A DNA stretch of 64,000 nucleotides, taken from assembly GCA_014904845.1 (NCBI GenBank), contig MU119408.1, positions 1-64,000 of the forward strand, in the 5' to 3' direction. Source of the stretch: Acephala macrosclerotiorum. Its lineage: Eukaryota > Ascomycota > Leotiomycetes > Helotiales > Mollisiaceae. Below are positions 9,181-52,390 of the stretch, piece after piece (position 1 is the first letter of the stretch; every line of letters begins with the position of its first letter). Made by a program: the position numbers and the translations under genes. The notes beneath the pieces were generated by a model that did no database searches, was not told the DNA's origin, and saw only the letters and a list, made by a program, of their open reading frames with translations.

Positions 9181-10595
9181 ATGCCAGCCGACGACCTCCA
9201 GAAGCTTGAACACGCCCCACTTCCTCCCTTCGCGGACAACTGCCACCCCATCAGACTGCTCACTCTTGAGCCTTCCCACGACTCATCTGAAATCCGGTCA
9301 ACCTGCTTGACAATTCAAAATACAAAGCCTTGTCGTATATCTAGGGAGAACCATCTATTACTATCCCACTTATCGTCAATGAAAAGCGATATGTGACGCT
9401 GAATTGCCATGCAGACCTTCGACGCCTAAGGGCAGCCAGGGAATTAAATCTTTGGATTGACTCGATTTGCATCAACCAGAAAGACAATGCAGAAAAGTCA
9501 ACGCAAATTCCCTTGATGGGCGATATCTACTCCCAAGCTCGAGAAGTCATCGTGTTTCTGGGACATAATGAGACGGAGCTGCCCCAAGGTTGTGCAGCAA
9601 AGGAGATTGCTGCACTTGCATGCCTTAGAGAATTGTACCGTCGCATTAGTGTGACGGACAAGAATATCCTCACAAGTAATGATTACATCCTGAAGAATCG
9701 AATGTTTGGAGAGTCTCTAGAGTTTCGAAGGTCGGCACCGAAGGGCATCTTTGACCATAAATGGTCCAAACGCCTTTGGGTCCATCAAGAAGCATTAATA
9801 GCGACACATTGCACAGTCTTCCTAAACCACGAGACTCTATCATACTGGGTCCTCATCGTATTAGGCAATATGTTGAAGGGAAAACTCAACCAGGTGCTGC
9901 AAGGTCAGCAATTGCCACAAGACGGGACATACCTTGAATTTCGTGGCATCTTGCAAAAGGCGCAGGCGAGGGCTTGGCCGATACTTCGCAAGAGACAACT
10001 GCAGCATACCGGAGGACCTTCTGCTGATGACCAACTTGAGCCTTCATCACTAGTCTAGCAACTCCCTTGAGGTCATATTTGGAGCCGGGAGGACGCCTGC
10101 TGTAACGAGAAGTCGAGAAAGGCATGTCTCTGCAGTAGTGAACATGCAGGACGAATCCGATGAAAGCCAGGCTCAAGTAAACTTGAGACCCTTCTTGGTA
10201 TGAGAGCTTCCAAGGGAATCGACTAAGAAGAGTTCCCTTCTTGGGTCATGGACTGGCGGATGAAACCCAGTGAGGAACCTCTGGTAGGACTTTACTCGCA
10301 TCTCTACAGTGCTGCCGCCGGAACCAAGCCACAATTCACACTCACAAACAACGGGACAGGTTTGGATATCAAGGGGTTATCGATTGATCCCGTTCCTGAT
10401 TCAGGAGAACCATATGGCTTAACGGATGGAGACATACGCAGAACAGCATTAGGTCTAAGGTGCTGGAAAAAATACTTTGAGGAAAAGTATACATATGTTC
10501 TCCGCAACTTGAACTTTCGATATTGCTTTATATTCCTCTGTTGGCGAAACTTGAAGAAATTCAGTTTTCGTTATATCTCATTCGGTTTCAGCTGA
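9181..10595 (+). pseudogene. HET-domain (heterokaryon incompatibility) gene, inactivated
   Basis: The N-terminal frame (from 9181) carries IRLLTLEP. Downstream (about 9300-9880) come ALSY, then GEPSITIP, LNCHADLRRLR, WIDSICINQKD, IPLMGDIYSQA, VIVFLGH and RLWVHQEA, the canonical HET-domain order. Two lesions are visible: a frame change between IRLLTLEP and ALSY (about 9295-9310), and a TAG at 9342-9344 where the conserved tryptophan of SYxWG should be. After 10058 the frame is lost again. A C-terminal piece reads from about 10248 (LYSHLYSAAAGTKPQF). A MITE lies immediately after it. Intact HET proteins start vegetative-incompatibility cell death; this copy is dead. The Trp-to-TAG change is the same type as in the MFS pseudogene. 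Confidence 0.85.
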
Positions 10596-10603
10596 ATGTA
10601 TTA

Positions 10604-11078
10604 CAGTCCCAGCTCACTGCTATTTAGCGAGTCCCAAATCCCCACCAAAAATGACCAAAACTCACCATATTGCAGCAATAAAATAAAGCAACTACAATGT
10701 TTGGAATTCTTTGAGATTTGGTGCATTACTTAATTATTATATACTCTTACTTTTTATCTCTTCGCTTTTATGTCTACTATTAAAATGGTTATGTAAATAA
10801 GTCGTGATTTAAGAGTTCTCAAATTCGCTAAGGTTTTGTACCTAAAATGTCCGAAAATCGGGCATTTAGCCGCACTTTACATTTTACCTCGATGTTTTAC
10901 GATAACCACAATTTATAAACATTATTCGAAGCGGTAGAATATAGCGCGAGCATCGAATAAAAAGCTTAAGAATAACGAGTTTACCGGAATTCGTTAGTAT
11001 TTAGGGTATTTCGGCAAGTGATTTGAATGACTTTTGCGGTAAAAAGGGTCTTCGCTAAATAGCAGTGAGCTGGGACTG
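10604..11078. mobile_element. 475-bp MITE with about 27-bp terminal inverted repeats and TA duplication
   Basis: The left end CAGTCCCAGCTCACTGC... and the right end ...GCAGTGAGCTGGGACTG are perfect inverted repeats of at least 26-27 bp (10604-10630 and 11052-11078). TA flanks each end (10602-10603 and 11079-11080). TA target duplication and a CAGT terminus fit the Tc1/mariner-pogo superfamily. The element is too short to encode a transposase and its inside has no useful open frame, so it is a non-autonomous MITE. The interior is AT-rich with signs of C-to-T decay. It sits at the 3' end of the broken HET gene. Confidence 0.9.
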
Positions 11079-11080
11079 TA

Positions 11081-11420: not shown

Positions 11421-14400
11421 CTATGCGACTTTTGTGCCATTAGCCCATTGGGCTTGCAAGTCCTTCGCCTCGTCGTGTCTTCCTAATTTCTCAAGTAGCG
11501 GATAAAGTCTCCGAATTGTATCCCTCAGCTTTGGGCCTCCGGTATCTTCCCTACCAAACATGACTTGTTCGAAGACTCCAACTGCTTGCTTGAGTTTCTC
11601 GTCTGTATCCTGCGCCTCATAACACATTGCCAGCTCCTCCCGTGCGTCTAAGGTTGACTGATGCTGGAGCCCCAAGACTCTTTCGTAACCTTCTATTGCA
11701 AGAGTGAAGCAGTCCTCGGCTTTCGAGTATTCTGATAGCTTGTTGTATATTTTGCCAAGGAAAACAACCTTTTGCAGGGTCGCGGGATGTTCCGTGCCCA
11801 TGACTTTCCTACTGCTTGCTAGTGAAGCGTGGCACAAGAGTTCTGCTTCGTGGCACTTTCCTGTCTCAAAATACACCTCAGCCAGTCTATCCTGCGCCTG
11901 GAGAGTTCCATGATGATGAGTGCCAAGAATCTGTTTTTGGGAGGCGACAATCCGGTAGTAGAGTTTCTCTGCTTGCGGGAAATTTTCTTGCTCGTAGAAC
12001 TCAGATGCACATACATCTAACAGTTGTAGAATTTGGAAACTGCGTGGTCCGAATAGCGCTTCCAATTTCGAGATGCCCTGGTCAATTATCCTAGCAGACT
12101 TGGTAATGCTCCCAATGCGAGTGTACAGCTGTGAGAGGGCCTTATACACGTCCAATAAAAGCTGACCCCGGGTATTTGTGTTCGCTTCACCTGGAGGGTC
12201 GTTTTCGCATTCTCCAAGGACGTTTTCGTACTCGATTACGGCATTATTCAGATTTCCTTGTATTTGATACAGCGATCCGAGTTCGAAACGAAGCTTTTGT
12301 CTGTTACTTGGCTGTGTTTTTGTATCAATTTGAGGGTCTGATAGTGCCAACTTGTAGATCCTGACTGCTTCGCTGTATCTTTCATGTGATTTGCACACTT
12401 CACCTAGAACCGCCCACCCGACATCTCGACAACCATCCGAACCGACTTGACGAAGGCTGTCAATCCGAGAAAGACTTTGTAAAATATGCGGTAGGAGAAG
12501 CTTTTCCAAGCCCTGTAGGATCTCGGGATCTCTACGCGCCGAGTCAACAACGGTGGCAAGGGTTGATAGAGCCTTCCTGACAAGTTCCACGGCTTTAGGT
12601 TCGTCCGAGCCTGTTGCACGTTTACGGATCCAGGATTGGACTAAGGTGTGCATGCGAAAGCTTTGCAGATTTTCTTCGCGATGACCAAAGCCATTATTGA
12701 ACAGCGTGTCAACCATGTCATCTAAGCGGATACCTTTTTCTGACGTTAGCCTTGAATACGCAGTGAAAAAGCGACGCAGGCAGTAAAGAAAGGTGATATA
12801 TACCTGATTTGTTTGATCCCTCCTTTAAAACCACTGCTGGAATATTCTCCGGTGCCATGAATGAACAAAGGTGTAAGAGTTCTAGAGCATCGCGGTCCTT
12901 GGCTTCTACCTCCCGATAAGACTTCTCAAGTACTTCATCAACTGATTTGGAGAATACCACTCTCATCAGAGATGCATAGTCATCCCATAGCCGAAGCTTT
13001 GCATTCTTGAAACGGTTCAAGTATTCGCTAGCTGTCATTCCGGTAGATTCCATATATGCACCTGCTTGCATTATAGCCAATGGCAGACGGTCGAGGCGCC
13101 TCACAAGTTCTATTGCAGAGTTCTGGTCTTCTATTCTAATATTACTACCACGGAAATCTGAATAGTAGCAACAGAACTTACCAAACGTGCATGATGCTGA
13201 CAGAAGTTTGGCAGCCTCTTCTTCCAGCATAGGTTCTACCGCTATGCCACTGCTACTCTTCGGGAGGTCACGATGGCGGCTTGTCACTATGACAGAGCCA
13301 TGCTTAGTGTTAGGGATGAATTCTGGTAACCATGAAGACTTCTTTTTGTCATCCGCTCCGTCGAAAACAATTAGCCAACGTTCATTGTGCTTCTTTGCCA
13401 AAAATCCCTTGACAATATCGATTGAACACGAAGAGAGGCCTGGAATTTTTGCGTCCGACCCCAACGGTATGGATGTATGGCTAGAGTCAGAACTACTCGA
13501 CGATTCCGAGGATCCCTTCATATTAGGCTTCCAAGCTTGAGCCTCGGTTGCATGCCTTGATCGCATCCTCAAGAGTTTCCGCTCTATCCTAGAAAATGAT
13601 TTTTGTGTTGAGTCACGGCTTTGTGAGTCGATCCAGAGAATAGAGGTGAACTTGTGCTTGTAACGGTGAATGAACTCAAGAGCGAGCTGTGTTTTACCCA
13701 CTCCTCCAAGGCCGTATAATTCGACCACTTTTGGATACAATACTGGGGAAGCCTGGCTATCGTTGTCGAAGATATTGGAGTACATTCCATCCAGATCAGC
13801 ATGCCTTCCCGTGAATTGTTGATTCCGCGCTGGGAAAACCCTCAGAGGGTCAGAAGTATCGTATACATCTTTACTCTCCACAGCGCCTAAGCTACGTAAG
13901 CATTACGATACTTCCTTTTATCCTTGGGAATTTGCTTACTTGTTTCCTGGTCATGCAAGTAAAGCATCCAATTTTGTCTGCACTTCTCAGCACCCTCATT
14001 ATAGAGGCAAAATATCGCATCTTCTACTTTTTTGTAATCTGGATCAATCGCATCGTGAAATCCATAAACCCGTTCAACTCGAAATGATACATGGCTCCGG
14101 AATGTTGATGGACGGTTTGGTTCTCCCGCAGTTGAGATCAAATCCTTTGACGGCTGTTCAGGTACTGCCTTTGACTCTGTATTGGAGTTCACCCCATATT
14201 GGTTGAGGATATCGACTGACTGTGAAGGCTGTCAGTCGAACCTTGGTTTTTCTGGTGAGTACTTACCTGCACAGGAACTTTGGCTTGATGAGCCGACTTG
14301 TGAACATAGTACAAGGAAAAACATTCAGAGATACTTTGAAAAGAGTCAAGCTGCAATTTGAGCCATGCTAAATCTTGCGCAGTAACCATTCTTGGATCGC

Positions 14401-17400
14401 ATCCACTGCCGGCAGCATCACTGGGCTTTAAGAGTTCGGGGATCGCGATGTTACCTGATACTTGAATCTCGGGTGGATCAAGGAGGAGTATCCCAGTCGT
14501 GGAGACTTTGATGGCATTCATGCTTTTCGCGTTGGGGTCCATGGACAGATGAGATTGCAAAAGTGCACTTTTCAAAATAAGGCCACCTGTGTCCAAAGCG
14601 ACGAATATGAGCGGTCGTCGTGTCGATTCATCCCTTTGCGCACAAAGCATAGTGAGCAACTCTGTTGCCTGCATCGAAATGACATCTTCGATCGGATATG
14701 AGCGCCAGGGGGCAGAGTCATAACCGTAGCTTAGAACTCTCGCTTTTGGCAAATTTTGGGTCAAAAGGTGTTTTGGCCAGCACAGGCCATTGATCGTGTT
14801 CACAGGTTGAAAGGACCAGCTTTTTTCTCTGCCGCCATCGAGTCCATGAATAAACACGATACTACAGCGAAAACGATAAGTCAGTGGACAGTACTTAGTA
14901 CGGTGAAAGTAGTGATTATCATAGCTAAAATTTAAAGCGATGGCTTACTCGACTGTTGGGGACTCGGCACTATTCCACACAGCAAGACCATGCCCTGCGT
15001 GATAAATTGCAAAATTTTCTTCGAAGCCTCGTGGCTCAGTTCGATTGTCCGAATTCGTTGACTTGATTGAAAAGCTTCGTCTTATAGTCCGAAGACGTCT
15101 GAACATAGATCCGCTTTCATTCTTCACTTCACTACTAACGAAGCCTGAAAGCATATCCCAAACACTGCCCGTTGACTTCACTACACGTATACTAGAACTC
15201 CTGTTCAGATCAGTATATTACAAACTCAAAACAAACAGCAGCTTGATCAGGAAGAACACCCACTTCGATAACTCGAGCGTTAACAGCCTCAAGCGTTCTT
15301 CACAAGCTTTATTTCCTTCAAAGCTAATGAACTGAAGAGCAAGCGGAGGAGACCGATCTCTAAGCTCGAAGATCTCATTGATCATCTTGATTGTTTCTTC
15401 GGGGCTGGCATTTTCAATCCATGCACCATCTGTTAGGATGTAAATAGTGAGAGGTATATTACGTTGAGTACGTTGTGGTGACATCGCCCTAGAGAAGGTT
15501 AATGCCTTGGTGCTTGCCCCTCCATCAACCCTGGAGACGTGATCATATTTGATCCGCAGCAAAGAATCTAGAATTCGTGTTTGGCCCTGATATCTTGCTC
15601 GATCTAGCATCGCCAATAGCTTCTTCGTGTGCTTTGACTCGCAATGTTCAGTTGAATTGGTGAAGTATAGATGAATGCCTTCTGGATTATCTTCTTTAAT
15701 CATGTAAGAAAGAGCTTCCAGAACGTTTCTCACTTCTTTTGTATGGTGTCTCATAGATACAGCATCATCAATCAAGAAGATCTTCAGAAACATTAGCATG
15801 AGCTAAAAGGCAATGAAACCGTAATTGTACATACGTGCTCTCTCTTCCCTAGACGATACAACAGTGGCCCAGGCATAACCTTCGAGTTTTGATGTCTCTG
15901 CTTGTTCTTGGATTTCCAGACAAGAGCGTCTGCAACTGAGCAGTACGGCACGTTTGAAGGATGAGAAGAGATTATCTCTGTTGGAAGTTGAATACTGTTC
16001 TTACGCGGTTGAATCTTAAAGTCGGTGGTTTGCAGGCTCGTTTCTGTATATGTGTTAGCGGGTTCCAACAAGGTGACAACTTCTTTGATAACTAGGATGT
16101 GTACCTAGAGTTTTGGACACCTCTGCTGAAATTGATATGCTTAATTCTGGGAGAGGTTCATTTTGTTGTCTCGAGCCTAAACCCGAGGAAGTGTCTGAGT
16201 CTGCGTGGGATGAGACTGTGGTGCTAGAGTTGGTGCTGGAGAATGATTCCGTCCCAGACACGTATTTAGGTTCCTCGATATACCCTCGAAAGTCTTGAAT
16301 ATTATTACACTCACGACATGTCTCAATTTCACTTTGACTTCCCGGCAATGTTTGAGATACATCGTTTTCTCTGGTTAAACAAGAGCTTTTCACTGCAACC
16401 AAATTGATTGACGATTCTTGTTGGTCCGGGTCCTCAAACGGAATGGGCGTGGTGACATTTGCAGCCTCAACTTCATCTTTGATTGGAGAAAATATTTGCG
16501 CTGGGCTCCGAAATACTACTGTGCTTTGACTTCGTTCGGACTTATTGTCGGTACTAGCAGCACATTGATCTTCGGCCTTTGACAGAATACGCTGCGCCTT
16601 ATACCATAGTTGATCAGCATTTGGGCGCCCTTCGGGAACTTCTAGCATTTCTTCGATCATAAGGCTGACAACTGAGCGAGAGATATCGTCCTGGCTTCGA
16701 AGCATATCCAAGAGGAGTCTATGATGATCTTGAACCGTATCTAGTATACCAAGGCCGTCGTGGAAATAGGGTCTACTTGCGAATCTTCCGCGCATATCGA
16801 CTTCATCTTTGCGTTTCCGACGATACCTCTGTGTACCTTCGTAGCCACTGACAATCCATGTAGCCGCTTCACTGAAGACACATCCGAGGGACCAAATGTC
16901 TGCACTTTGCTTCGGGTGGAAGTCGTGTAGCTTGGCCCCGGGAACGATCTTTGAGTACTCAGGGGCTCCTGCAAATTGATTTAGACAAGACTGATGGTCG
17001 GCTGCTGAAACTTACCATAGCTGTTCACAGCGGAGGGACAGGTACCACCCGACCGTAGTCCTGCGAATTGGTTCGTACACAGACCTGTGAGCAAGAATCT
17101 TACTTCATACGGGTTTGCTGTATTTTGGCTGGCGACCAGAATTTTGGAGGGTTCCACATCGAGATGCCAGCTGTAAATATCAGGACTGCTTGGAAGAACA
17201 GGGGAACTTTCATACCAACAAGCGGACATTGACCTGGGAAGCGCGGGATCATGTGCTGCTTTGTAGGTAGCTCCTAATCCTCTTATGATCGCAAAAAGCT
17301 CTCTCCAAAATTTGATGGTGTCCTGTTGGGTTGTGGGTGGGTGTACCTGCTGGAAGTACTCGTCCAAAGTACCTCTATCAGCGTATTCGAAGATAACGTT

Positions 17401-18183
17401 GAAAGCGTTGTCCTGAACATAAGTTCCACAGAACCCTATAACGCCTTGATCATGTTTGATATTTTTGAAAGCTGCAACTTCATCGTCATAATCTTCTCGA
17501 GCACGGAAAGTCTTGAGGGCAAAGAGATTGGTGTCGGGGCTATCGTCCTAGCATTTACGATTAGAAACATGGACGGATTTCTCCAAAGACCGGCTTACGA
17601 ATCTTGACTTCCATGGGCGTAGAAAATTGTAGTCCTCGTGGATTCTTATCCTGAAAATGCTGACGTCGAGGCTCTTCTTGATCGGCTCCTTACTCACTAT
17701 AGGAAGAATTCGGTCTACTGAAAATCGCTGATTTAGTGATCGATGAAGAATAGGCACTGCATACTTCCATTGCTTGTTACAAAATTGCTCGTAAGTAGCC
17801 GGAGCTGCGTCTTCAAAGGCAGTTAGAAAATGTGCAGGTGGATCACTGGGATCGAATGGTAGCTGGGCGTCTCGAAGACTCTCGTGCTCTGTGAAATTAT
17901 GGATACAATCCCCTTTTCCTATTTCGAGGAGGATGCAGAAGACTGCTGTATATCTCTTCAGTATGGCTTCAGCATAGGTCGGAGGCTCCTTGGGATAGTA
18001 CACCGCGGCGAGGATGCTGTTCAGTCGTGCGTTACGATTCTCTTCAAGATATGTCTCGACCGCCTTCACAGGTACGAATGCACGGCGCGAGTCGGAGGCA
18101 GGACCTGCGACGGAATAACACCTCGTCTCCTGGAGCCAGGCAATGAAGCCCTGCACAGTTGAATTGTCTTCCGGCCTCGCCAT
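11421..18183 (-). CDS. Giant NLR-like receptor: pseudokinase - vWA - alpha/beta hydrolase - NB-ARC - TPR
   Basis: Ten exons join in phase without a stop: 17599..18183, 17016..17547, 16105..16968, 15835..16043, 15264..15781, 14949..15200, 14267..14861, 13940..14219, 12804..13886, 11421..12733 (2,076 aa). The nine introns are GT-AG, 47-87 bp. Residues 1-195 match the leader of fungal STK/vWA proteins. The kinase spans about 200-450: FALKTF lysine 207, HLDVEPSKI at 323, APE, DIWSLGCV. The DFG site reads LLTGLC, so it is probably a pseudokinase. A Ser-rich linker leads to the vWA at about 731-905 (FLIDDAVSM). The hydrolase fold starts at 987 (DIVFIHG), with VALDTGG where VAHSLGG is usual. NB-ARC has an intact P-loop (GLGGVGKT, 1337-1344), Walker B IVFDGADD and RLPLA. 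TPRs fill 1640-2076. The start at 18183 is preferred; an in-frame ATG at 18366 would add 61 residues. The exon 14949..15200 links the vWA tail and hydrolase start in one frame, so this is a real fusion by sequence. Two genes sharing that exon cannot be excluded without RNA. Confidence 0.8.
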
Positions 18184-19975: not shown

Positions 19976-20941
19976 AGAAAGTCGGAGATAGTATACAAGG
20001 GAAGAAGAATTTGCGTGCGAACCTGTGAATAGACCAGATGCGCTGTTGGAATATTTGAGCCGACGAGAGATCGCGCAGCCTTTCGAGTGTTCCGAGGACC
20101 AAAACACAGCCTCCACGGGGGCTGAAATGCGCAATGGCTGCCTACTAATGCTCACGATGTTGCATTGTTCAATTTTGGCTAAGCCTCCCGAACAAGCTAT
20201 ACCAGGTTTGCTTTTCTTCAGACAGGCTCTTCTATTGATGATCAGTGGGAAGGGTCTCCGGTGTGTTAGAGATGAAATACGCCACACGGCGCGTATCATC
20301 AGCCCACTCCCCAATTCGGGCGCTCGCTGACAGGACGAGCCTCACGTCCAGTTTTCATCCATGAGAAATACCTCCATGATAATCCTCTGTCTCGCCTCCC
20401 CTAAAGGACACCACCATTAACCTGAAAACCCCTCCTTACGATGCTCAACAACAAAACTTCTAACGAGCATCAGCGTAAGTTCATTTACTAGCCGTTCATC
20501 AAAGATTCGAAATCTCCCCAAATGCTCTCCTTTGCAATTATCGAGGTAGTACAAAAGGTTCAGCTTCGTGCATGCATCCTGCATGCGCATGCAGCCTTCC
20601 ATTTTAGTCTTTGTCGTACCTCCACTCCCAGCCTCGTGGCCATGGCTTCTCTTGCACTTCGCCCCATTATTGCTTTTATTTCAAAGTCCATCGTAACGAA
20701 TAACTTCTGCGGCTCCTCGCCACCACCAGCAGTGAGATAGTGTCTCAGTGGTGAACTCGGTCAGATCACCGAGGGAATGTTTTGGTCTTTGGTCAACCAA
20801 GCTCTAGAACCCTCTCCGCAATTTTGGAGTTATTCAATTTGCTTGTACTGTAAGCTCCTAAGTGTCTTCCCAGTAGTATTTGCATCATTAACAATTTTCC
20901 AATAGCGCTAGGTTAGCAGAAATCGTCCTGCCGGCGGAGGA
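19976..20941. promoter_or_regulatory. Divergent promoter region between gasdermin-like and CHAT genes
   Basis: The two genes are transcribed away from each other, with 966 bp between their start codons. A shared control region would let both be expressed together. I see no recognised operator; several short open frames here look spurious. The arrangement is seen in the sequence; co-regulation is inference. Confidence 0.45.
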
Positions 20942-23060
20942 ATGAGACGAAACATGCGCAGCTTTTTCCGCAAGGGGTCCTCGATATCCACAGACACAAC
21001 GCAAGGCCACAAGTCGCACAAGATCACAATTCAACAACTACCACTACGACCAGATAAATTCGACAAGGATGGAAGACCACAATACTGCGTTGACATATAC
21101 CTTGACAATCATGCTGAGGCCGCGATTTCCAAGCACTATTTCTACGACCCTTGTTCCGACAGAGAACTCAGTTCTTGTGCTTTATACCTCAACGAGATGC
21201 TGAAGGAGGGAAAATATGATGCGGCTATTGCACAGGCTACAGGTGTCCTCATAAAAAAGTATGGACAGGATCTTTTCAAGCAATTGACTCTCGGCGAACT
21301 CTCAGAGAAATTGGAGCACCCGAAGCTGGATATTCAGGTTAAGGAAGCTATTCGAGTCGAAGGCTCAAACAATACTATACACAGGCTCCGCTGGGAGCAA
21401 CTGGAAGATTGGGACCTTTGGACAGGAATCAAGCAGCCATCTGTAACCGTCAGACGAATTGTTCCACAGCAGAATTCGAAAGGCGTCAGCAATAATCTGA
21501 GTCTCAATGTTTCTCAAACACCAGCTCCGGAAAAGAAGAAGGGCAGAGTCAACATTTTACTCGTCATTGCTCGGGGCCTTGAGAAAAAGGGAGATGATTA
21601 TTATGAGGTTGACCCCGGCATCACTTTGAGCGCAATCCTGCGCATGAAGCGTACACTCGAGAAAGACGGCTCGCCTGACGGTTATCATATTATGTTAGAG
21701 GTCGTACGGCCGGGGACTTTTGAAGCATTCAAGCGGCATCTCGAGTCGAAGCCAGAGGGGTATTTCGACATCGTTCATTTCGATGTACATGGCGAGGTCA
21801 ATCAATCAAGGTATACCGGCACTTGCTTGAATACTTTGCAAGGCTCCTAGCTAACCAAGGTTCCGTCGTGATAGTTCAGTTCACGAGCCTTTCCTTCAGT
21901 TTATGAGCGAAGACACAAGCTTTAACAAATTAGTAGAAGTCCCAGCAATCAAAATTGCAACGGAACTTCGTAAATTCAAGGTTCCTTACGCAGTCCTCAA
22001 TGCATGCAAATCCGCCAGTCCATCTGCTGGAGATTGCGGAAACCTCAGCCATCTCTTTGCCCGGCAGACCTCTCTGAAAATCCTGGCAATGTCATTTAAT
22101 ATCACCGGCGCAGCTGTAAAGGTTCTCTGCGAACATTTCTACAGGAGTTTCTTCGCGGACCTGCAGTCATTCTCGGAAGCAGCCAGTCGAGCACGGGATG
22201 CATTACGGCGTAATCGTATTCGAATAAACCATTTCCCATGCATCGAGGTATTGGACTGGTTCGTTCCGGTCACCTATGCATATACCGACAATACCCTCCC
22301 AGAACATTGCCTGCCAAAGCGCACCCTCTTCGGGAGGTCTCGGGTTTCGCTCAACTCCTCTCTAGCACCGCCGCCACCGCGGAGTAGCAGTGGCTCGTCT
22401 ATCAAGAGCTTCGTGAGCTCACACAGAGGGAGTTCGTTGCATGATGCGGATAACTTTCTCAGACTACGTATCTCCGACTTAGAATTCGAACGGCAGATTA
22501 TACGTGATAACGTCATTCGTCTCTACGGACCAAGCATCAAAAGCTATGCCAATAGCGATAGTTACATTGGCTACATTACGGATCTTTGGCGTATCACGAA
22601 CTTCGCGGAAGAGCCGTATGTGATAGAAGCTAATGTAATTCTCGACTCCGACCATGATTTCAAAGCGCTTTGGAAAGCAAAGGAGTACATATGGGGGCCT
22701 TGTCGGAGTGCACAGGCGGTTCTTCCCAACAAGCTTGTCAATTGGGAGAACACGAGTTCGGCCAAAGAAAAGACAGTACCAAGGCCAGTTATAATCGTCG
22801 ACCACGCAGACGCTTTATTTCCACCCAATCCAACACAGGACCAAGTATATAGGCGAGGTCAATTGAACAAATTCTTCGAAGAAATACTCATTGAACCCAA
22901 AGCGCAACACAAGGAATTTCGAGCGCCTTTCTTGATCTTTGTCTCCGCAAACGACATTCAAAATTTGTCAATTAGCCACTTCCCCAATCTTGGAGGACGA
23001 AAGTTTCTTTACGAATGGCGTCCGGTTCCTGAACCATACGACAAACAAGCCTTCGGATGA
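20942..23060 (+). CDS. CHAT-domain (caspase-like) protease with degenerate P-loop NTPase domain
   Basis: Two exons, 20942..21810 and 21860..23060, join in phase (689 aa) across a 49-bp intron (GTATAC donor, GCTAAC branch, AAG acceptor). Residues about 195-400 form a CHAT domain: NILLVIARG, then DIVHFDVHG with the expected catalytic His283, then VPYAVLNACKSA with the expected catalytic Cys339. Both dyad residues are present. A Ser/Pro-rich linker (about 455-475) leads to a STAND/AAA-like segment. Its Walker B is clear (PVIIVDHADALF, about 599-610), but the Walker A position reads RLYGPSIKS, lacking the normal GxxxxGK[ST]. The NTPase is therefore probably inactive or atypical, and the protein ends soon after Walker B, shorter than typical STAND receptors. 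CHAT proteases cleave partner proteins; the obvious candidate here is the divergent gasdermin-like product. Confidence 0.75.
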
Positions 23061-42850: not shown

Positions 42851-44970
42851 ATGTTCACTTATGTCTTCGTCGCTGTTGGCGGTCTGGTGCTGTTTTGGTG
42901 CTCGCAAAAATGGGCATCGCTGAATCGCAATATTGCTGCTGCAAAAGCTTCAGGGCTTCCGTATCGTATATCTTGTTCGTGAGATTTCATGTCTTCCCAA
43001 TCCTTTTGATAGCTTTATACTCGACTAACTCCTCTAGTTATTAGTGGTATTCCTGGGTACCTCTGGATAGCGACTCACAATCTCTTTCTCGGACCACTCC
43101 ATGCGTTCAAACCTTCGCGAAAATGGCTTTGGCCCAAGTGAGTACCAATTCTCGTTCTCGATTCACATTGTTAACAAGCTTCTAGGCTCATCCATGTCCA
43201 TCGAAGTTGGTATTACCCTCAGGAAATGCGACAGAGTCTTGGCGAGGTTTATCTCATCGTCAGCCCTACCCAGATATTCATGGGCTGCAGCAATGCAGAA
43301 GCCAATTTACAGTTGACTAGTCGCCGTCTCGACTTCGCCAAACCCGTGGAGATATATGCTATTGTAGATATCTTTGGGACTTCCCTTCTCACTACTGAAG
43401 GAGAGGAATGGAAAAGGCATCGCAAGATTGTCGCTCCGGCATTTTCAGAGAAGAGCAACACTGTAGTGTGGAAGGAGACCTCGCGACAGACGGATGGTAT
43501 GGTCGGTGTTTGGTCCAAGCTTGACGGGAATGAACCTGGCAGCATGAAAGTCAAGGACACTGCTCCGTACACGGCGACTATGGCACTGCACGTCATTTGC
43601 GCAGCTGGATTCGGGGTGAGGCAGTTGTGGGATGGAGAAGATGAAGGCCAGCTTGGAACAAATACCGTCCCTGGGTTCAACACCTCGAAGCTCATTCGTG
43701 GGCATACCTTGACTTTCAAGGACTCGTTGAACACATTGTTGGATGGAATTATCTGGTTGGCGATATTCCCGGTGTCGCTGCTGAGTATGTGTTTCTCGTC
43801 GTTTGCTTCGTCTCTACTAACATATCACAGAAAAGTCGCCTTTTGAGCTACATAAGAAGCTGCTTCGAGCATTCTTCGAATGCACAGATTACTTTACAGA
43901 GCTATCGGAATACAAGCTACAGCAGATCGAGCGTGGAGAGAAATCGGAAGCAGGAACGATGGATATCATGGGTAAATCAAACCATCCTTTCTTGCACACA
44001 AAATCTTACCTCTTCAGGTCCGCTCGTCAAAGCATCCGAGAGAACCCCAGATGATTCAAAAGGCCTCTACCTCACCAAACAAGAAATGATAGCCGACTCC
44101 TGGATCACCCTCTTCGCAGGCCATGAAACATCAGCCAACATCACCCATTATTGCCTTCTCTTTCTCGCCATCGAACTTGCCAAGCAATCTAAGCTCCAAC
44201 AAGACCTCGATTCCATAATCGGCACTCGACCCTCATCAGAATGGACATACGAAACTGACCTCAACCGAATCTGGCATAGCATGATTGGGGCAACTATCAA
44301 CGAAACCCTACGTCTCATGCCACCTTTGATCGATGTTCCGAAAATCGTGCGCACCACACCTCAACCCTTGGCTTTTGACGGGAAGAAAGTTACTGTGCCT
44401 GCAGATACGATTATCCACATCAGTTGTGTGGGCGCACATCGGAATCCAAGATACTGGCCTCATAGTCCGAGCAAGCTCTCGTCCAAAGAGCATGATCTGG
44501 ACGATTGGGTTCCAGAGCGCTGGCTACAATCTTCACCTACGACAGCTCCGCCAATTCCAAAGGAGCCCCTTCCCGCAGAAAGTTCGGGCGAGAACACAAC
44601 CTCATTCGACACCCCTTCTTCCACGACCTCAACGCTCCACATCCCACCTATCGGTGCCTTCCTCCCCTTCTCTCTTGGTGCACGTGCCTGTCCCGCTAAG
44701 CGCTTCGCACAAGTCGAGATCACCGCCACACTTGCTACCATCTTCTCCAAATATACCTGTGAGCTGGATGTCAGCGAATGGGCTTCAGATGCTCAGCTTC
44801 AGAGGATGGATAAGTATGGGAAGAGGAAAGTGTATGGGAAAGCGATGGGCAAAGCGAGGGAACTGATTAGGAAGAGCGAGAGCGAGATTTTCCTGTCTAT
44901 GACTGGGAGGTATGTGCCGGTTCGATTTTTCACGAGGGGAGAGGGGAAGTTTGAGGGTGTGTTTGCTTGA
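42851..44970 (+). CDS. Cytochrome P450 monooxygenase
   Basis: Five exons, 42851..42978, 43045..43137, 43186..43784, 43831..43971 and 44018..44970, join in phase (637 aa). The N-terminus is a membrane anchor (TYVFVAVGGLVLFW). P450 landmarks follow: WKRHRKIVAPAFSEKSN (helix C), AGHETSANITH (helix I oxygen-binding motif), ETLRL (ExxR), PERW, and the haem loop FSLGARACPAKRFA with Cys545 as the expected iron ligand. A Ser/Thr/Pro-rich insert sits before the haem loop and explains the above-average length. A microsomal oxidase using NADPH-P450 reductase is expected; the substrate is unknown. No biosynthetic cluster surrounds it here. Confidence 0.88.
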
Positions 44971-45186
44971 GGGATTTTTGTGATTTTATAAAGTGCGTGA
45001 AAACAGATTGCTTAAGTTGAAAGAGAATCCACGCTCTTACGCCCATTACATCCACCGAGTTACATTGCGTCTAAATGATAGTTTAAAAACATCGCATGTG
45101 TTCTGTCATCAATCTGCTCTGTCCTTCAAGTCTCGGAATTCTGCTTGCAAACTAACTACTTTCAAATGGGGGGAAATGTTCGCAAT

Positions 45187-45975
45187 TCACAAAACAGTGA
45201 TGAACAACGCCCCTAAAATTGCTGCACCAAATGAGGTGAGGATGTCGCCGATTCCTTTCCCCAACATCATAGCACCGCTCGTACTAGTGCTCTTTGTCGT
45301 ACGGCCTGTGCTTGTACTTGTGCTGGAGCTCGAGTTACTAGTAGCAGAGGTGTTCGAAGTTGTTGTTGAGTTGGTGTCCATATCAATGAAGAAAAACGTC
45401 CCTGCAATTGGCGCGCCAAGGACCGCAAGAGTATGGAAGGAAGAGATTTAATAACTCAAGATCGGCATTTTCCTTAAAGACCGAAATGGCTGGGATCACT
45501 CACATTGAATCCAATTCTTGCCGAAGTATTAAATCCCAAGCTGGCAATACCTTTGTTGTTCAATGCAGTAGGCTGGACGTAGAGGAGATACATGTAACGA
45601 TGACTTCCTGTGTTTGCTGCTGAAGCAGCGCATTTATTAGTAGTAGCAGATGTCTTGTCGAAAAGCCCGGCGGTGGACAGGATTTGAGAATTTCGAGGTG
45701 AGGCGATGGTGAGATTTCCGGCTAAGAATTGGCGGACATTGCGAGGTGTGGGGTTAGCGCGAGGGCACGTCAGGTCCGACCTTGGATATTACCAGCCTGG
45801 AAATTTTCAACGCGGAGTAAAGTGGAGTATACCATAAAGAAAAGAAAACTAGAGCTCGTCACGTTTGAGACATTGGTGATGTTCTCCACTGAAAGTTCGA
45901 AGGGAGCTTTTGCTTCAGCAGTGGAAAGCGTGATGCCGGGTGTTAACAACGCTCCTTCTCTGGAGTCCGAAGCGA
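45187..45975 (-). pseudogene. 3' remnant of a secreted, probably GPI-anchored, Ser/Thr-rich protein gene
   Basis: Reading the minus strand from about 45,975, coding-like blocks appear. The first has LSTAEAKAPFELSVENITNVS; the next NVRQFLAGNLTIASP and GLFDKTSATTNKCAAS; the last is MDTNSTTTSNTSATSNSSSS and ends in GDILTSFGAAILGALFITVL, a hydrophobic C-terminus typical of GPI signals. N-glycosylation sites are dense. Introns are probable near 45,380-45,480 and 45,740-45,840, but at least one junction (AAT|GTGAGT to GCAG|GGACG) does not keep phase. The N-terminus and signal peptide are missing. The coding part stops where retroelement sequence begins, with stop codons just beyond. A broken surface-protein gene is the best reading; an odd splice form is possible. 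Confidence 0.5.
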
Positions 45976-45977
45976 AT

Positions 45978-46204
45978 TATCAGTTGATCGGGCAAAAGGA
46001 GTGGTATTGTGATGTCTAGTCTGCCCATCTAACTAGGTGGGAATGTTCCCTCAATAGAGTAAAATCACCACCAGTGCATCCGGACCAGCCTAGACCGCCT
46101 ATATGAGCCGATGCTCAATCAAGCGTGCGGCTTCATTTCAACATCAAACGATGTCTTAGTGCATTGGCCCTAATACCACCTAATTCCGAGATCTCAACTG
46201 ACAC
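45978..46204 (+). mobile_element. Decayed LTR fragment, inverted relative to the copy at 38.5-39.1 kb
   Basis: A polypurine tract GGCAAAAGGAGTGG (about 45,990-46,003) is followed by the LTR start TGTGATGTCTAG at 46008. Similarity to the 38.5-kb copy, in opposite orientation, runs to about 46,204 (TCTCAACTGACA in both) and is then lost. It truncates the neighbouring minus-strand secreted-protein gene. Confidence 0.75.
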
Positions 46205-47521
46205 GAATCCTGCGTAGAACGAGAGGCGCTCAGCGTCGTGATGGTTGAAAGAGAATGTGAGACAAGTTTGACAGAATGCTGCTGACGGCGCGCTGAAGCA
46301 TCTTTACGAGGTGGAAGATCACAAATTGTCCGCAACATGTCAGTAATGGAGTTCGAGCTGTCAGGGTCCTCGGAACGTTCATCGACGGCTCAAACACTAT
46401 TTAGCCGCAGAAGCGGCTTTGCGGTCGCCCGAATAAAAGACCTCGAGAGTTCTCTGCCATCCTATCTGATATTTGAATACTCAGACTCTTAATCTAATCC
46501 ATCGCGCTCGGAATTTTCTTGGTAACTTACGCCGAATCTTAACCTTCGTCGCTTCCAACGCGGTTAGTTAGTATCGACGCTCTACTCAGGCGCTACTCAC
46601 CCTCACCTCACCCTCTGCTCAGGTTGCTCAGTCACGCTCCTGCTCTCACTTCTTTCTATTATTCTATCACACCACTCTTGTTGCTAATAACAGAGGACCT
46701 CGGCCAGCTTTCGCATGCGATGCGCGAGTCGAATGTTATTATACGGACTGTGAGCGGCGATCGGAGCCGAGACGACGGCACTATGCCTGAAAAGGCTAAC
46801 GCATCGGTCAACGGATTGGATTATCCCGAACCTACGCGAGACCGAACATACATGTACGTATTCACCGGGCAACTGCCCATACTTACCAACCGCTTACCCG
46901 ATCTTAAAATCGTTATAACTTTGCGAATATTTAATAGAATCTTATAAGGTTTTTTGGAAAATACTTGCGACAACTAAAGTTGTAATTGTATTCAGAAATT
47001 AAAATGTTTAATTAATATTAATAATTTAAAAATTAAAAATTTAAATATTAATTTAAATATAAATATTAATTTAAATATAAATATTATTAAAAATATTATT
47101 AATTTATTAGATACTGTAGGCTCTTAGTACTCTAATAATATTTTATTTATATTTTTTTAGATTCGATCTGATAGAATTATAGTTATTCTTTTATTTTTTA
47201 TTGTTTTGATTGGGCGGTTGTCCGGTGAATACGAGTACTTCTACATGTCTCGCATGTGTATTAAGCCTCGGGATATCTTCCCGCCTCCATCAGCCAACCT
47301 ATCTGAGTCTCCTGACAAAGGAGCATCTGGCCTAGGCGTAATATCACGTTTATAATCATGCCATAGGTACAGAGGACAACACCAACCCTGAAAAGGTTTT
47401 GCAATTTAATTCTTTAGACCATGAATCCCTCTCTGAGCTTTCCTTCTTTCCTTGCAGTTATTAGATTCTCATATCGCTTTCTTTCCGACTACACCGAAGC
47501 TCTTTACCTCCAGCAAGCCCA
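46205..47521. other. Intergenic with an AT-rich mutated patch
   Basis: No gene. A GCTCAGG/CTCACC-rich stretch lies at about 46,580-46,650. From about 46,930 to 47,200 the sequence is almost pure A/T with the few cytosines mostly in CpG, as in the 56-63 kb desert; it is probably a mutated repeat fragment. The ABC transporter promoter lies within 47,200-47,521. Confidence 0.55.
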
Positions 47522-50500
47522 ATGGACGGAGAAGTTCGCGAGACAGTAAGCACGAACACGTCGGCATCCACGCAACCACTCCCTGGCTCAGTTACACCTG
47601 GGGTAAGTATGGGTGATGGAGAACAGAATTGTTCTCCCAACGAGGAGCCACCTACAGTGGCTGAAAACACCGGTGGCGATGACTTATCACGACAATACGA
47701 GCTGATCAGTGCTGATAACGCTGCCGAGCTTCGACGATTAGCATCCATTGATTCCATTCACCGTCGTGGGTCGCTGGAACATCCCAGTGCTGGAGCTACT
47801 GACCCTGAGCTGGATCCCGCGAGCCCGCGATTCGACATTTGCAAATGGGCCAGGATGATTCTTACATCCATGGACGAGGAGCAGATACCAATTCAACAGA
47901 CGGGTTTCTGTTTTAAGAATCTGAATGTGTATGGATCTGGCCCGAGCCTCAACATCCAGAAAGATGTGCTTTCAATCTTCATGGCACCATTTAGACTACA
48001 CGAGTGGATCAATTTTGGTGACAGAAATCGGAGGCGCATCTTGCATGGTTTCAACGGCGTTGTAAAGTCTGGTGAGATGCTGGTTGTTCTCGGTCGTCCT
48101 GGTAGCGGTTGTTCGACTTTTCTCAAAACAATATGTGGAGAATTGCATGGTCTTGACCTTGAGTCAAAATCACCGATTCATTACAATGGTCAGTATACAT
48201 GGGTTGCATTTGAGATTTGTGCTAATATCCTTAGGCATGCCGATGGATATTATGATCAAACAGTTCAGAGGGGATATCGTGTATAATCAGGAGGTTGAAA
48301 AACATTTTCCCCACCTGACTGTTGGGCAGACACTTCGGTTTGCAGCTGCTGTTCGGACTCCTCGGACTCGGTTCCAGCACCTTTCTCGAAAGCGCATGGC
48401 CGCGTATATGGCCGATGTCATTATGGCCATCCTAGATTTGACCCATACACGGGATACAAAAGTCGGCAATGAATATGTCCGTGGAATCAGCGGAGGAGAG
48501 AGAAAAAGGGTTAGCATCGCGGAAATGGCTCTCTCTGGGGCACCGCTTGCGGCTTGGGACAACTCGAGCAGAGGTCTCGACTCAGCAACAGCCCTGAGGT
48601 TTGTTCGCGCCCTGAGAACTGCTTCTGATCTGGCGCACATGACCCAAGTTGTGGCTATTTATCAAGCGTCACAGGCTATTTATGATATATTCGACAAGGC
48701 TATGGTCCTCTACGAAGGGCGACAGATCTATTTTGGTTCAGCGAAAATGGCCAGGAAGTATTTTATCGATATGGGGTGGGAGTGCCCCGCCCGCCAAACT
48801 ACCGGAGACTTCCTAACTTCTGTTACTAATCCCGATGAGCGAAAAGTCCGTCCTGGATACGAGCAGATGGTTCCTCATACTCCACAGGACTTCGAGCAGT
48901 ACTGGCTCAAATCTGAAGCCTTTCGTACTTGCCAGAAAGAGATCGAGCTCTACGAACAGGAATTCCAATCCGAGGGCCAGTCGTAAAAGAATTTTACGGT
49001 GTTCACCGCACAAGACAAGCCAGGCATACCTTACCGAAGTCTCCGTATCTGATCAGTGTCCCTATGCAGGTCAAAGAATGCACAATTCGTGCATACCAAC
49101 GCATAGCTGGCGACATGACCAGCACAATTGTCCATTCCTCAGCCCAAATCATGATGTCACCGATTGTTGCCTCCATGTTTTATGGTACTCCAGACACTTC
49201 CGGTGGGCTCATCAGCAAGGGATCGGTCCTTTTCTTTGCCGTCCTTCTCAATACCCTGATTGCTGTTTTGGATATTCACAAGTTATATGATATTCGGCCC
49301 ATTGTCGAGAAGCAAGCTAGTTATGCATTTTATCATCCCTTTGCGGAAGGATTAGCATCTCTCCTAGCTGATGTACCTATTCGATTTGTGACAGCGACAA
49401 TATTCAATATCATTCTTTACTTTCTCTCTGGACTTCGACGGGAACCATCACAGTTCTTCATATTTCTTCTTATCAATTACGTAGCGACACTTACGGTATG
49501 ATCCTGCATAGTCAAAGTTGTCATTACTTCTAAAGGCTGACGGAATTTCAACAGATGACTGTGGTGTTTCGCACAATTGGAGCAGCGACTAAGAAAATCA
49601 CACAAGCTCTCGCTATTGCAGGAGTAATGCTATTGGGATTGATCATATATACTGGCTTCGTTATTCCAAAGCCATACATGCATCCATGGTTCAAATGGAT
49701 CATGTACCTTAACCCGATCGCATACGCCTTTGAGGGTCTTATGACGAACGAGGTACACGGCAGAAACTTTACCTGTGCCTCATCAATCCCTTCTTATTCG
49801 AACATGACCGGTACTACCTTTGTTTGCTCTGTTCCTGGATCTATTCCAGGGCAAAGTTTCGTCTCTGGAGACGCATGGGTGCATGCGAGCTACCAATACT
49901 CCTACTCACACATATGGAGGAACTTTGGGATTCTCTTCGTATTCCTGTTCTTTTTCTTAGCCACTTATCTTGTGGCTACTGAGTACAACACAACAGCGTC
50001 TTCCACAGCTGATCTACTTGTTTTCCGTCGCGGACATGCTCCTCGCGCTCTCACCGATGCAGAAAAAGGTGCCCGGATCACAGATGTGGAGAGCAATAAT
50101 TGCAGCTCTAACGCGACGCGGGTAGCAGAAGATGAGGATGAAAATTTTGCGATTGCCCCCCAGAAGGACATCTTTACTTGGCGAAATGTCTGCTATGATA
50201 TCACCGTCAAAGGCGGTAAAAGCAAACGCTTACTGGAAAACGTGTCAGGTTGGGTAGCCCCAGGAACTTTGACTGTCCTGATGGGAGTCTCTGGGGCTGG
50301 CAAGACAACTCTTCTAGACGTCCTTGCCCAGCGAACTAGGATTGGTGTGCTCACTGGGGAGATGCTTGTCAGCGGCAAGCCTCTCCAGTCAAGTTTCCAA
50401 CGGGAGACAGGTTATGTTCAGCAGTTAGGTAAGCTTTATGCTCGTTCTTGAACTTCTAGCGATTATTTCTGACTTTGCAGATTTACACCTTGAAACCACT

Positions 50501-52390
50501 ACCGTTCGGGAAGCACTTCGTTTCAGCGCCATGATGCGTCAACCGAACACCATCTCGAAGGAGGAAAAGTATGCCTACGTTGAGGAGATAATTAAGCTGC
50601 TTAGAATGAAGAGCTTTGGCGAAGCCGTTGTGGGCATTCCAGGTGAAGGACTGAACGTTGAACAGAGAAAACTTTTGACCATCGGTGTTGAATTGGCAGC
50701 CAAACCAGACCTACTCCTTTTGTAAGAACTCGATATATTGTTATCAGTGTTCTAGGGCTAATTATTTCCAAGTCTCGATGAACCAACATCTGGTCTCGAT
50801 TCTCAAAGTTCATGGAGCATCGTTGCTCTTCTCCGCAGGCTCGCCGACCATAGCCAAGCAGTCCTTTGTACGGTCCATCAACCTTCAGCAATCCTATTTC
50901 AACAATTCGAGAAACTCCTACTTCTTGGCATCAACGGGAAACCCTGCTACTTTGGCGAAATTGGTCCAAACTCAAGTACCCTAGTCGATTACTTCGAGAG
51001 GAATGGGGCCAGAAAATGTGATGCTGCCGAGAATCCTGCGGAGTACATGCTCGAAGTGATTGGGGATGGTCATGGTGAGCCAGGCCTCCATGACTGGCCG
51101 CGAATTTGGATTGAAAGTCCGGAAAACGCCAACGTACACAAGGAGATTGATCGCATTCAAAGGGAGGAGCTTTCTAAGACCAATCCGGAGAGGCTTAAGG
51201 ATGTAACCTATCATCCTAAGAACGAAACAGAGTTTGCCATGCCATTTGCTGACCAGCTCTGGTATGTCTTCTGGAGAGTGTGGCAACAATATTGGCGGAC
51301 TCCGGATTATATTTGGAATAAGCTACTTCTTGGAACCATTTCAGCCTTGTTAGTCTCTTGGCGTATAGCTTCTCAAAGTCTTACTAACCCTAGGCAGATT
51401 CATAGGCTTCTCCTTTTTCCAAGCCAACTCGTCCATTCAAGGATTACAGAACGTGCTTTATGCTCTTTTTATGCTAACCGCTACCTTTACCATTATGGTC
51501 CAACAGGTATGTATTTATTGAAGTGAACATTTGAGCATTAATTCTGATTCTTCTTAGATAATGCCTCGCTTCGTAACTCAAAGGTCGCTCTACGAGGGTC
51601 GTGAGCGACCATCGAAAGCATATTCTTGGAAAGCATTCCTAATGGCAAACATCTTTGCAGAAATTCCATACGCCTTACTTCTTGGTATTCTCGTCTTCGC
51701 CAGTATCTATTACCCCGTCTTCGGTATAGGATCATCGCAGCGCCAAGGCTTGGTTCTGCTGTATTGCATAGTTTTCTACATTTATGCGTCAACCTTCTCG
51801 CATATGCTTATATCATGGGCCCCAGATCCTGAGACGGCAGGACCTATTGCCATCGTTCTTTTTGCGATGTCGCTGCTGTTTAACGGCGTAATGCAGCCAC
51901 CCAGTAAGCAATATTCCTAGCTTTAAATGAATCAGCTAACATTCCGTTCTTTCTAGATTCGCTACCAGGTTTCTGGATGTTTATGTACAGGGTTTCACCA
52001 TTGACGTACTGGGTTGGTGGCATTGCAATAACAACTCTCCACGACCGGGCTGTCAAATGTGCCTCTACCGAAATAGCGATGTTCAACCCACCCACAGGCC
52101 TCACTTGTGGTCAGTATTTGGCACCCTACCTGCAGCTTGCTCCTGGCCAGCTACTTAATCCCTTGTCAAACGAGGTGTGCCAATACTGCCCATTGACTGT
52201 CGCGGACCAGTTTCTGGCGAATAGTGACCTCAATTGGAGTCAACGGTGGCGGGATTTCGGGCTTATATGGGCTTATGTGGTATTTAATATTTCTGCAGCT
52301 GTGCTACTCTACTACGTTTTCAGAGTTAAGAGATGGTCGAAGGATAATTTGTTGGTGAAATTTAAGCTATCGAGATACTTCAAGCGATAG
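47522..52390 (+). pseudogene. Full-size PDR-type ABC transporter with a one-base frameshift
   Basis: Eight exons: 47522..48188, 48235..49495, 49555..50428, 50481..50721, 50773..51348, 51398..51506, 51558..51903, 51957..52390; all introns are 46-59 bp GT-AG. The layout is (NBD-TMD)x2 as in fungal CDR/PDR drug pumps, about 1,500 residues. NBD1 has [12 protein letters not shown] and [15 protein letters not shown]1 ends at about 50,000. NBD2 has the canonical Walker [17 protein letters not shown], and the split Walker B LDEPTSGLDSQ crosses an intron. TMD2 ends in a basic tail. Within exon 2, at about 48,975-48,984, one base appears missing and creates an immediate TAA; the continuation EFYGVHRTRQ is in the next phase. 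Everything else looks intact. A very recent pseudogene or an assembly error are both possible. Such pumps export drugs and plant or fungal toxins at the plasma membrane. Confidence 0.88.

Follow-up and report, generated by a model that had tools for sequence, protein, structure and literature searches.

The window analyzed here comprises 64,000 nucleotides (positions 1 to 64,000 of the forward strand) of contig MU119408.1 from Acephala macrosclerotiorum (assembly GCA_014904845.1; 69.7 Mb in 778 contigs), a fungus of the Mollisiaceae (Helotiales) described as ectomycorrhizal (PMC7550596). On its minus strand, an open frame leads from an ATG at 18183 to a stop codon ending at 11421; rebuilt from the sequence, this gene is divided into ten exons by nine GT-AG introns, each 47 to 87 nt long, and spans 2075 codons plus stop without any frameshift or premature stop. 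The encoded parts are, in this order, a conserved N-terminal region, a pseudokinase, a probable vWA domain, an alpha/beta-hydrolase-like domain, an NB-ARC domain, and a TPR array. We read the locus as one gene in which a kinase-vWA gene has been fused, end to end and in frame, to a gene for a NOD-like receptor (NLR) of the hydrolase-NB-ARC-TPR type; the inactive kinase-vWA part would then be a sensor or decoy module (probability about 0.53). A preliminary description, made by a model from the letters of the window, had proposed one continuous frame with a five-part order; the continuous frame holds at the DNA level and the order stands as well, with six parts instead of five because a conserved region of about 190 residues, absent from that description, precedes the kinase. 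The features of the gene are as follows:

11421..18183, minus strand: whole coding gene, 2075 aa in ten exons (rebuilt frame; first 1275 aa identical to the public protein P0001, discussed below)
18183-17599, 17547-17016, 16968-16105, 16043-15835, 15781-15264, minus strand: exons 1-5 of the GT-AG gene model
15191-14949, 14861-14267, 14219-13940, 13886-12804, 12739-11421, minus strand: exons 6-10 of the GT-AG gene model
17599..18183, minus strand: exon 1 (aa 1-195), the N-terminal region conserved in the kinase-vWA family (alignment with P0126, P0127, P0128, P0130, P0131, and own-genome paralogues)
16571..17547, minus strand: pseudokinase, about aa 200-505 (Pfam PF00069 below cut-off; alignments by eye)
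15140..15781, minus strand: probable vWA domain, about aa 731-920, split by intron 5 (15263-15192) with its tail in exon 6 (identity to relatives; PF00092)
14949..15191, minus strand: joining exon 6 (phase-2 introns in common with paralogues on one side and with hydrolase relatives on the other)
15104..15106, minus strand: in-frame ATG (M932, MFRRLRT), candidate relic NLR start codon
13986..14989, minus strand: alpha/beta-hydrolase-like domain, about aa 971-1260, with introns 6 and 7 inside (relatives P0042, P0115, P0119; weak Foldseek hits)
14582..14602, minus strand: VALDTGG at the nucleophile elbow, aa 1071-1077 (HSLGG in relatives)
13887..13939, minus strand: intron 8, whose CTTAG acceptor keeps NB-ARC in frame
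12636..13836, minus strand: NB-ARC region with intron 9 (12803-12740) inside (Pfam PF00931; motif positions)
11464..12431, minus strand: TPR array, about aa 1740-2060, limits approximate (Pfam TPR_12, TPR_10)

The joint between the two halves lies in exon 6, which carries both the vWA tail and the start of the hydrolase-like domain as had been proposed, with its start corrected from 15200 to 15191. The most likely acceptor is TTCTAG at 15191, and we adopted it because it agrees with P0001 and with the intron of the paralogues; the frame is kept with either site, and the whole-protein Pfam scan, two of three public-protein searches, and some own-genome searches used the start at 15200, which lengthens the product by 3 aa to 2078 aa. 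On the kinase-vWA side, all four own-genome paralogues that were read (C12, C153, C26, and C92; loci L035, L036, L037, and L040, each a separate gene) have a phase-2 intron directly before the vWA tail (D-x-x-D ... G-x-x-x-K-M-L), exactly where the window has intron 5; a fifth vWA-like match in this genome, C2:600827, lies outside this count. These paralogues stop 18, 38, 56, and 75 residues after KML, respectively, whereas the homologous exon of the window has no stop, although its vWA tail is recognizable as STGSVWDMLSGF. On the NLR side, a phase-2 intron (GA/GT...AG/T) directly precedes I-V-x-x-H-G in C28, C88, C66, and C261, exactly like intron 6 of the window. M932 follows the DML motif of the vWA tail by 14 residues, and its surroundings (MFRRLRT) resemble the first coding exon of C261, which begins with MFRIRKF. 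Exon 6 thus gives the impression of two exons joined into one, the last of a kinase-vWA gene and the first coding one of a hydrolase gene, with the stop codon and the spacer lost. Splice sites of paralogues and relatives were called by eye. That all ten exons keep phase, from which the preliminary description argued for selection on the full-length protein, is correct for the frame as such but weak as evidence, because splice sites are picked to keep phase, and such selection finds no support here; the shared intron positions outweigh this argument, and with them the anatomy of a fusion is well supported at the DNA level. The same description had named separately encoded proteins as a refutation, and this is half of what we find: the four kinase-vWA paralogues are separate, while at this locus their stop is absent and the frame continuous.

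The kinase-vWA half can be aligned to P0126, P0127, P0128, P0130, and P0131, fungal or unnamed proteins with lengths of 964 to 1085 aa, and has in common with this family the order of N-terminal region, kinase, and vWA as well as the exon structure at the vWA tail. Its kinase scores 26 bits with Pfam PF00069 (Pkinase), below the cut-off of 31.7. Among the motifs that we take to be catalytic, the VAIK-type lysine (FALKTF) and the HxD aspartate (WHLD) are kept, the catalytic-loop lysine and asparagine are changed to glutamate and lysine, respectively (DVEPSKIL), and the DFG position has no aspartate (FLLTGLCTNQF). None of the latter three residues is thus present in the window, compared by eye with eight relatives (P0126, P0127, P0128, P0130, P0131, C12, C153, and C26; C92, C307, and P0129 are outside this count) in which the DFG aspartate is found in all eight, the catalytic-loop lysine in seven, and the asparagine in six; six of the eight keep all catalytic residues that were checked. 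The window kinase is therefore best called a pseudokinase, as the preliminary description had it. The vWA segment shows 23-29% identity to eight relatives, and PF00092 matches three of the nine segments from the kinase-vWA family at E values up to 1 (best E 0.0047); for the window segment alone it gives E=0.016, below the cut-off, as is also the case for C153. Whole-protein Pfam at E up to 0.1 gave no vWA model and no hydrolase model. A loss of the metal ion-dependent adhesion site of vWA was considered as a peculiarity of the window and dropped, as the relatives vary at those positions.

The hydrolase segment is 27-41% identical to P0042, P0115, and P0119, which match DUF676/Abhydrolase models, while the window segment alone matches no Pfam family; its assignment as an NLR N-terminal domain is by homology only. 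A structure prediction for the hydrolase exon (4 sequences) reached a predicted local distance difference test (pLDDT) score of 55 and gave weak Foldseek hits, the first nine of which are alpha/beta hydrolases (best E 0.0085). This domain had been described as complete, but catalytically it is not: the nucleophile serine of HSLGG is an aspartate in the window and a serine in all nine distinct relatives whose alignments were seen (C255, C213, C88, C66, C261, C28, P0042, P0115, and P0119; C213 reads HSLGGF). Inactivity of the window hydrolase is likely by this comparison.

In the receptor core, both proposed parts are above the Pfam cut-offs, with 37.7 bits (cut-off 23.5; E 1.8e-9) for NB-ARC (PF00931) and 60.7 bits (1.6e-16) and 54.5 bits for TPR_12 and TPR_10. 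The motifs GLGGVGKT, LIVFDGADD, VIVTSRH, RLPLAI, and MHTLVQ look intact, with GLGGVGKT, LIVFDGADD, and MHTLVQ taken as the P-loop, Walker B, and sensor-like elements. An NB-ARC NTPase bearing these motifs and C-terminal superstructure repeats are hallmarks that the product has in common with the fungal NLRs (STAND NTPases); the hydrolase-like domain, with its changed nucleophile, would be the candidate for their N-terminal effector domain. The same succession exists elsewhere, since Podospora P0042 (1187 aa) has hydrolase, NB-ARC, and TPR in one protein and hydrolase and NB-ARC matches adjoin on one strand at C28 in the own genome.

When the whole product was compared with public proteins, a single near-identical record came up, P0001 (NCBI BDZ45DRAFT_186822 of A. 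macrosclerotiorum, 1276 aa), whose precomputed Pfam label is kinase only. It is identical to the final model at 1275 of its 1276 residues, uses the TTCTAG acceptor at 15191, and crosses the joint between vWA and hydrolase. An independent gene model of the same DNA therefore joins kinase, vWA, and hydrolase and omits NB-ARC and TPR. The annotation pipeline for this species is described as being aided by transcriptomes when available (PMC7550596).

Under the favored explanation, the stop of the kinase-vWA gene and the following spacer would have disappeared within the present exon 6, and the former start methionine of the NLR would persist as M932. At the DNA level, an extra, noncanonical domain is covalently joined to a complete NLR as in integrated decoys, and this module resembles separate kinase-vWA genes of the same genome. 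NB-ARC domains are established as switches and TPR arrays as sensor scaffolds in STAND proteins. If one transcript covers the whole gene, the inactive kinase together with the vWA domain might form an N-terminal bait or binding platform (an integrated decoy or sensor); engagement of this platform, or ligand binding by the TPR array, would release NB-ARC for nucleotide exchange and oligomerization, and the hydrolase-like domain without its usual nucleophile would then act as a signaling or adaptor surface and not as an esterase, with cell death or allorecognition as the possible output. Because the two enzymes are apparently disabled while the switch motifs are kept, the N-terminal addition more plausibly provides a binding surface than an enzymatic output, and a decoy or sensor role of the kinase-vWA module seems most likely to us.

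Several observations weigh against this explanation. The name vWA is plausible but weak, as there is no strong independent fold support: the AlphaFold2 model of the vWA exon (6 sequences) reached a pLDDT of 44, too low to lean on, and gave no useful Foldseek match, and a profile search of the PDB with nine vWA segments returned one match at chance level (E 0.85). Aspartate is the nucleophile in some alpha/beta hydrolases, so loss of the serine is no proof of inactivity; loss of the catalytic histidine was considered in addition and dropped, since this residue is out of register by eye but an RSH lies nearby and the MAFFT alignment has gaps there, leaving the histidine ambiguous. At the seam, the intron before IV-HGL is present in four of six hydrolase relatives, with C255 and C213 reading straight through, and we therefore rejected the idea that it is universal in hydrolase NLR genes. 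Leaving out the window, 29 own-genome matches include the hydrolase start; 14 of them set in at the intron (query residue 15-17) and 15 upstream of it, and the intron consequently marks only part of the hydrolase family. Besides P0001, which is without NB-ARC, no fused relative was found among the matches listed in the public-protein searches (judged by coverage and Pfam columns, with limited sensitivity and length windows). The remaining points against a single gene are best considered together with the alternatives to which they belong.

M932 could be the start of a separate NLR, so that a kinase-vWA protein and an ordinary NLR (hydrolase-NB-ARC-TPR, 1144 aa) would be separate products of the locus, with the shared exon as a compact overlap. 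M932 is placed where C261 starts, the resulting length is close to the 1187 aa of P0042, and the two halves are separate in the paralogues that were read. We nonetheless regard this arrangement as unlikely, given that the kinase-vWA half has no stop in frame unless intron 5 is retained (it would then end at 15218 and lose its vWA tail), that the 14 residues between the vWA tail and M932 leave little space for a terminator and a promoter, and that P0001 crosses the joint. P0001 itself points to another possibility, as it stops right after exon 8 (with "ETT"), before NB-ARC and TPR. If this record were correct, the product would be a 1276-aa kinase-vWA-hydrolase protein, and NB-ARC-TPR would be a separate or dead gene. 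The end of P0001 fits an intron 8 acceptor GTAG located 5 nt upstream of the frame-keeping CTTAG (GTAG/CTTAG), and the possible transcript support of its annotation speaks for it. Exon 9, however, has no in-frame ATG ahead of the motif FPARNQQFTGR (a later methionine does precede the P-loop), and an NB-ARC carrying this motif hence requires exon 8; together with the counterpart FVGR in P0042 and the order of hydrolase and then NB-ARC in P0042 and C28, this leads us to favor the frame-keeping acceptor. The downstream frame is moreover open for about 800 codons, and the public matches listed (hits of 631-2007 aa; scoring covered the 7992 candidates with most words in common) include no separate NB-ARC-TPR protein of A. 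macrosclerotiorum, all of which makes a truncated product quite improbable.

It seems even harder to sustain that the fusion is a recent accident or an assembly chimera, with no protein product being maintained. The lack of a fused relative among the listed matches and the degenerate kinase and hydrolase motifs would be expected in this case, and the codon score of the linker fails to support coding as well: over its 49 codons, the coding frame scores 0.014, the lowest of the three forward frames (the others reach 0.072 and 0.024) and within the noncoding range (95th percentile 0.041; scoring trained on 30 open reading frames, ORFs). Against this, 2075 codons are free of frameshifts and stops, nine of the ten exons score best in the coding frame (the exception is exon 4; exon 6 is low), and the homology seen on either side of the exon agrees with a biological fusion. 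In its tree, the kinase-vWA half does not sit on the longest branch, and an unusually fast evolution of this half, which we had considered, was not seen there (the alignment was anchored on the window and is biased in its favor).

Around the fusion gene, a plus-strand HET-domain ORF at 9345-10058 (PF06985, E 5e-23) converges on its 3' end. Another plus-strand ORF at 10227-10595 ends beside an inverted-repeat element and may belong to the HET-domain ORF. This element (10602-11080) lies some 340 bp beyond the fusion gene's stop codon and has perfect terminal inverted repeats of 29 bp; with three more near-full copies of 97-98% identity (one on C90 and two on C211) plus partial ones, it looks like a recently active miniature inverted-repeat transposable element. 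Beyond the 5' end of the gene, after an ORF without Pfam match, follows a plus-strand CHAT-like ORF at 21855-23060 (PF12770, 21.9 bits with a cut-off of 24). A long ORF in a different frame comes before it (20912-23060 overall, plus strand), and an intron or decay may separate the two. We count the position of the gene between HET-domain and CHAT-like ORFs in favor of the preferred explanation. Farther away, the plus strand of the window has a cytochrome P450 ORF and ORFs for PDR-type ABC transporters at 43645-51526.

In the same genome, locus L037 (C26, 1883-8773) has a kinase-vWA gene and, 0.7-1.2 kb downstream in the same orientation, an NLR-like gene (NPHP3_N and DUF7791) whose start is unsettled; this unfused pair resembles the ancestor that we infer for the fusion. 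A hydrolase-like ORF is found about 2.3 kb downstream of the kinase-vWA paralogue on C153, and the stretches fetched for C12 and C92 contain no match to the NLR half of the window (their downstream ORFs are without Pfam scan). That kinase-vWA genes adjoin NLRs as a rule was considered and dropped, the cases among these four paralogues being anecdotal.

Compared to known systems, each half of the gene has close counterparts. The hydrolase (sesB/DUF676) NLRs are represented by P0042, which has the same hydrolase-NB-ARC-TPR order, and by C28, which has the same intron before IV-HGL; unlike the window, these are stand-alone with a short N-terminus and keep the serine of HSLGG, while the window has an aspartate and, ahead of the hydrolase, about 930 additional aa of kinase-vWA sequence. 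The scanned ORF of C28 also differs in having no TPR by Pfam. Fungal kinase-vWA proteins are like the window in their N-terminal region, kinase, and vWA-like region, and in the phase-2 intron before the vWA tail (four own-genome genes), but all four own-genome genes read stop after the tail exon. For the combination, literature searches found no described receptor with this domain order, in agreement with the preliminary description; three surveys of fungal NLRs do not mention "vWA" in their main texts, and the accessible part of a review on fungal cell death names it once, beside TROVE in a figure legend of domain abbreviations.

NLRs with integrated domains are the known kind into which we place the gene, as a member with a kinase-vWA module. 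According to a survey of Sordariales, 12 NLRs have kinase domains, nine of which were proposed as integrated decoys (PMC12258605). A kinase joined to a complete fungal NLR and the decoy hypothesis are what they have in common with the window, yet the kinases of that survey are C-terminal in nine of 12 cases, CHK2-like, and attached to T-NACHT NLRs (PMC12258605), whereas the window has a whole kinase-vWA module at the N-terminus of an NB-ARC NLR. The FxSxx-type NB-ARC-TPR proteins (bacterial P0010 and P0005 and metagenomic P0075) likewise have an N-terminal module before NB-ARC and TPR, which is a SAV_2336 domain with a vWA-like VVDDSPSM motif (by eye) in P0010 and a protein kinase in P0075. 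The combination of kinase, NB-ARC, and TPR as such therefore already exists in P0075; these proteins differ from the window in being bacterial or metagenomic, in not combining kinase and vWA, and in having no hydrolase.

The likeness to plants is one of architecture. In wheat, Lr9 (WTK6-vWA) combines tandem kinase and vWA in an immune protein for which a decoy role has been proposed (PMC10260399), and the wheat tandem kinase WTK3 acts with the NLR WTN1 (PMC12839863); kinase and vWA in an immune protein (Lr9) and a kinase protein working with an NLR (WTK3/WTN1) recall the window, except that these are plant proteins and their NLR is a separate protein. Only tentatively would we go on to propose that a whole immune-related kinase-vWA protein and its guarding NLR were welded into one covalent receptor, a decoy in which two enzymes are dead and the NB-ARC switch is live, and that this receptor is convergent with the kinase-vWA and tandem kinase-NLR systems of wheat. 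If a single mRNA covers the locus, the gene would encode a fungal NLR with an entire second protein as its N-terminal module, the exon anatomy of the fusion being still legible, and would be a testable fungal case of the integrated-decoy idea that makes the separate kinase-vWA proteins of the same genome candidates for guarding. Such a receptor would parallel the plant resistance proteins in which kinase, vWA, and NLR function are combined.

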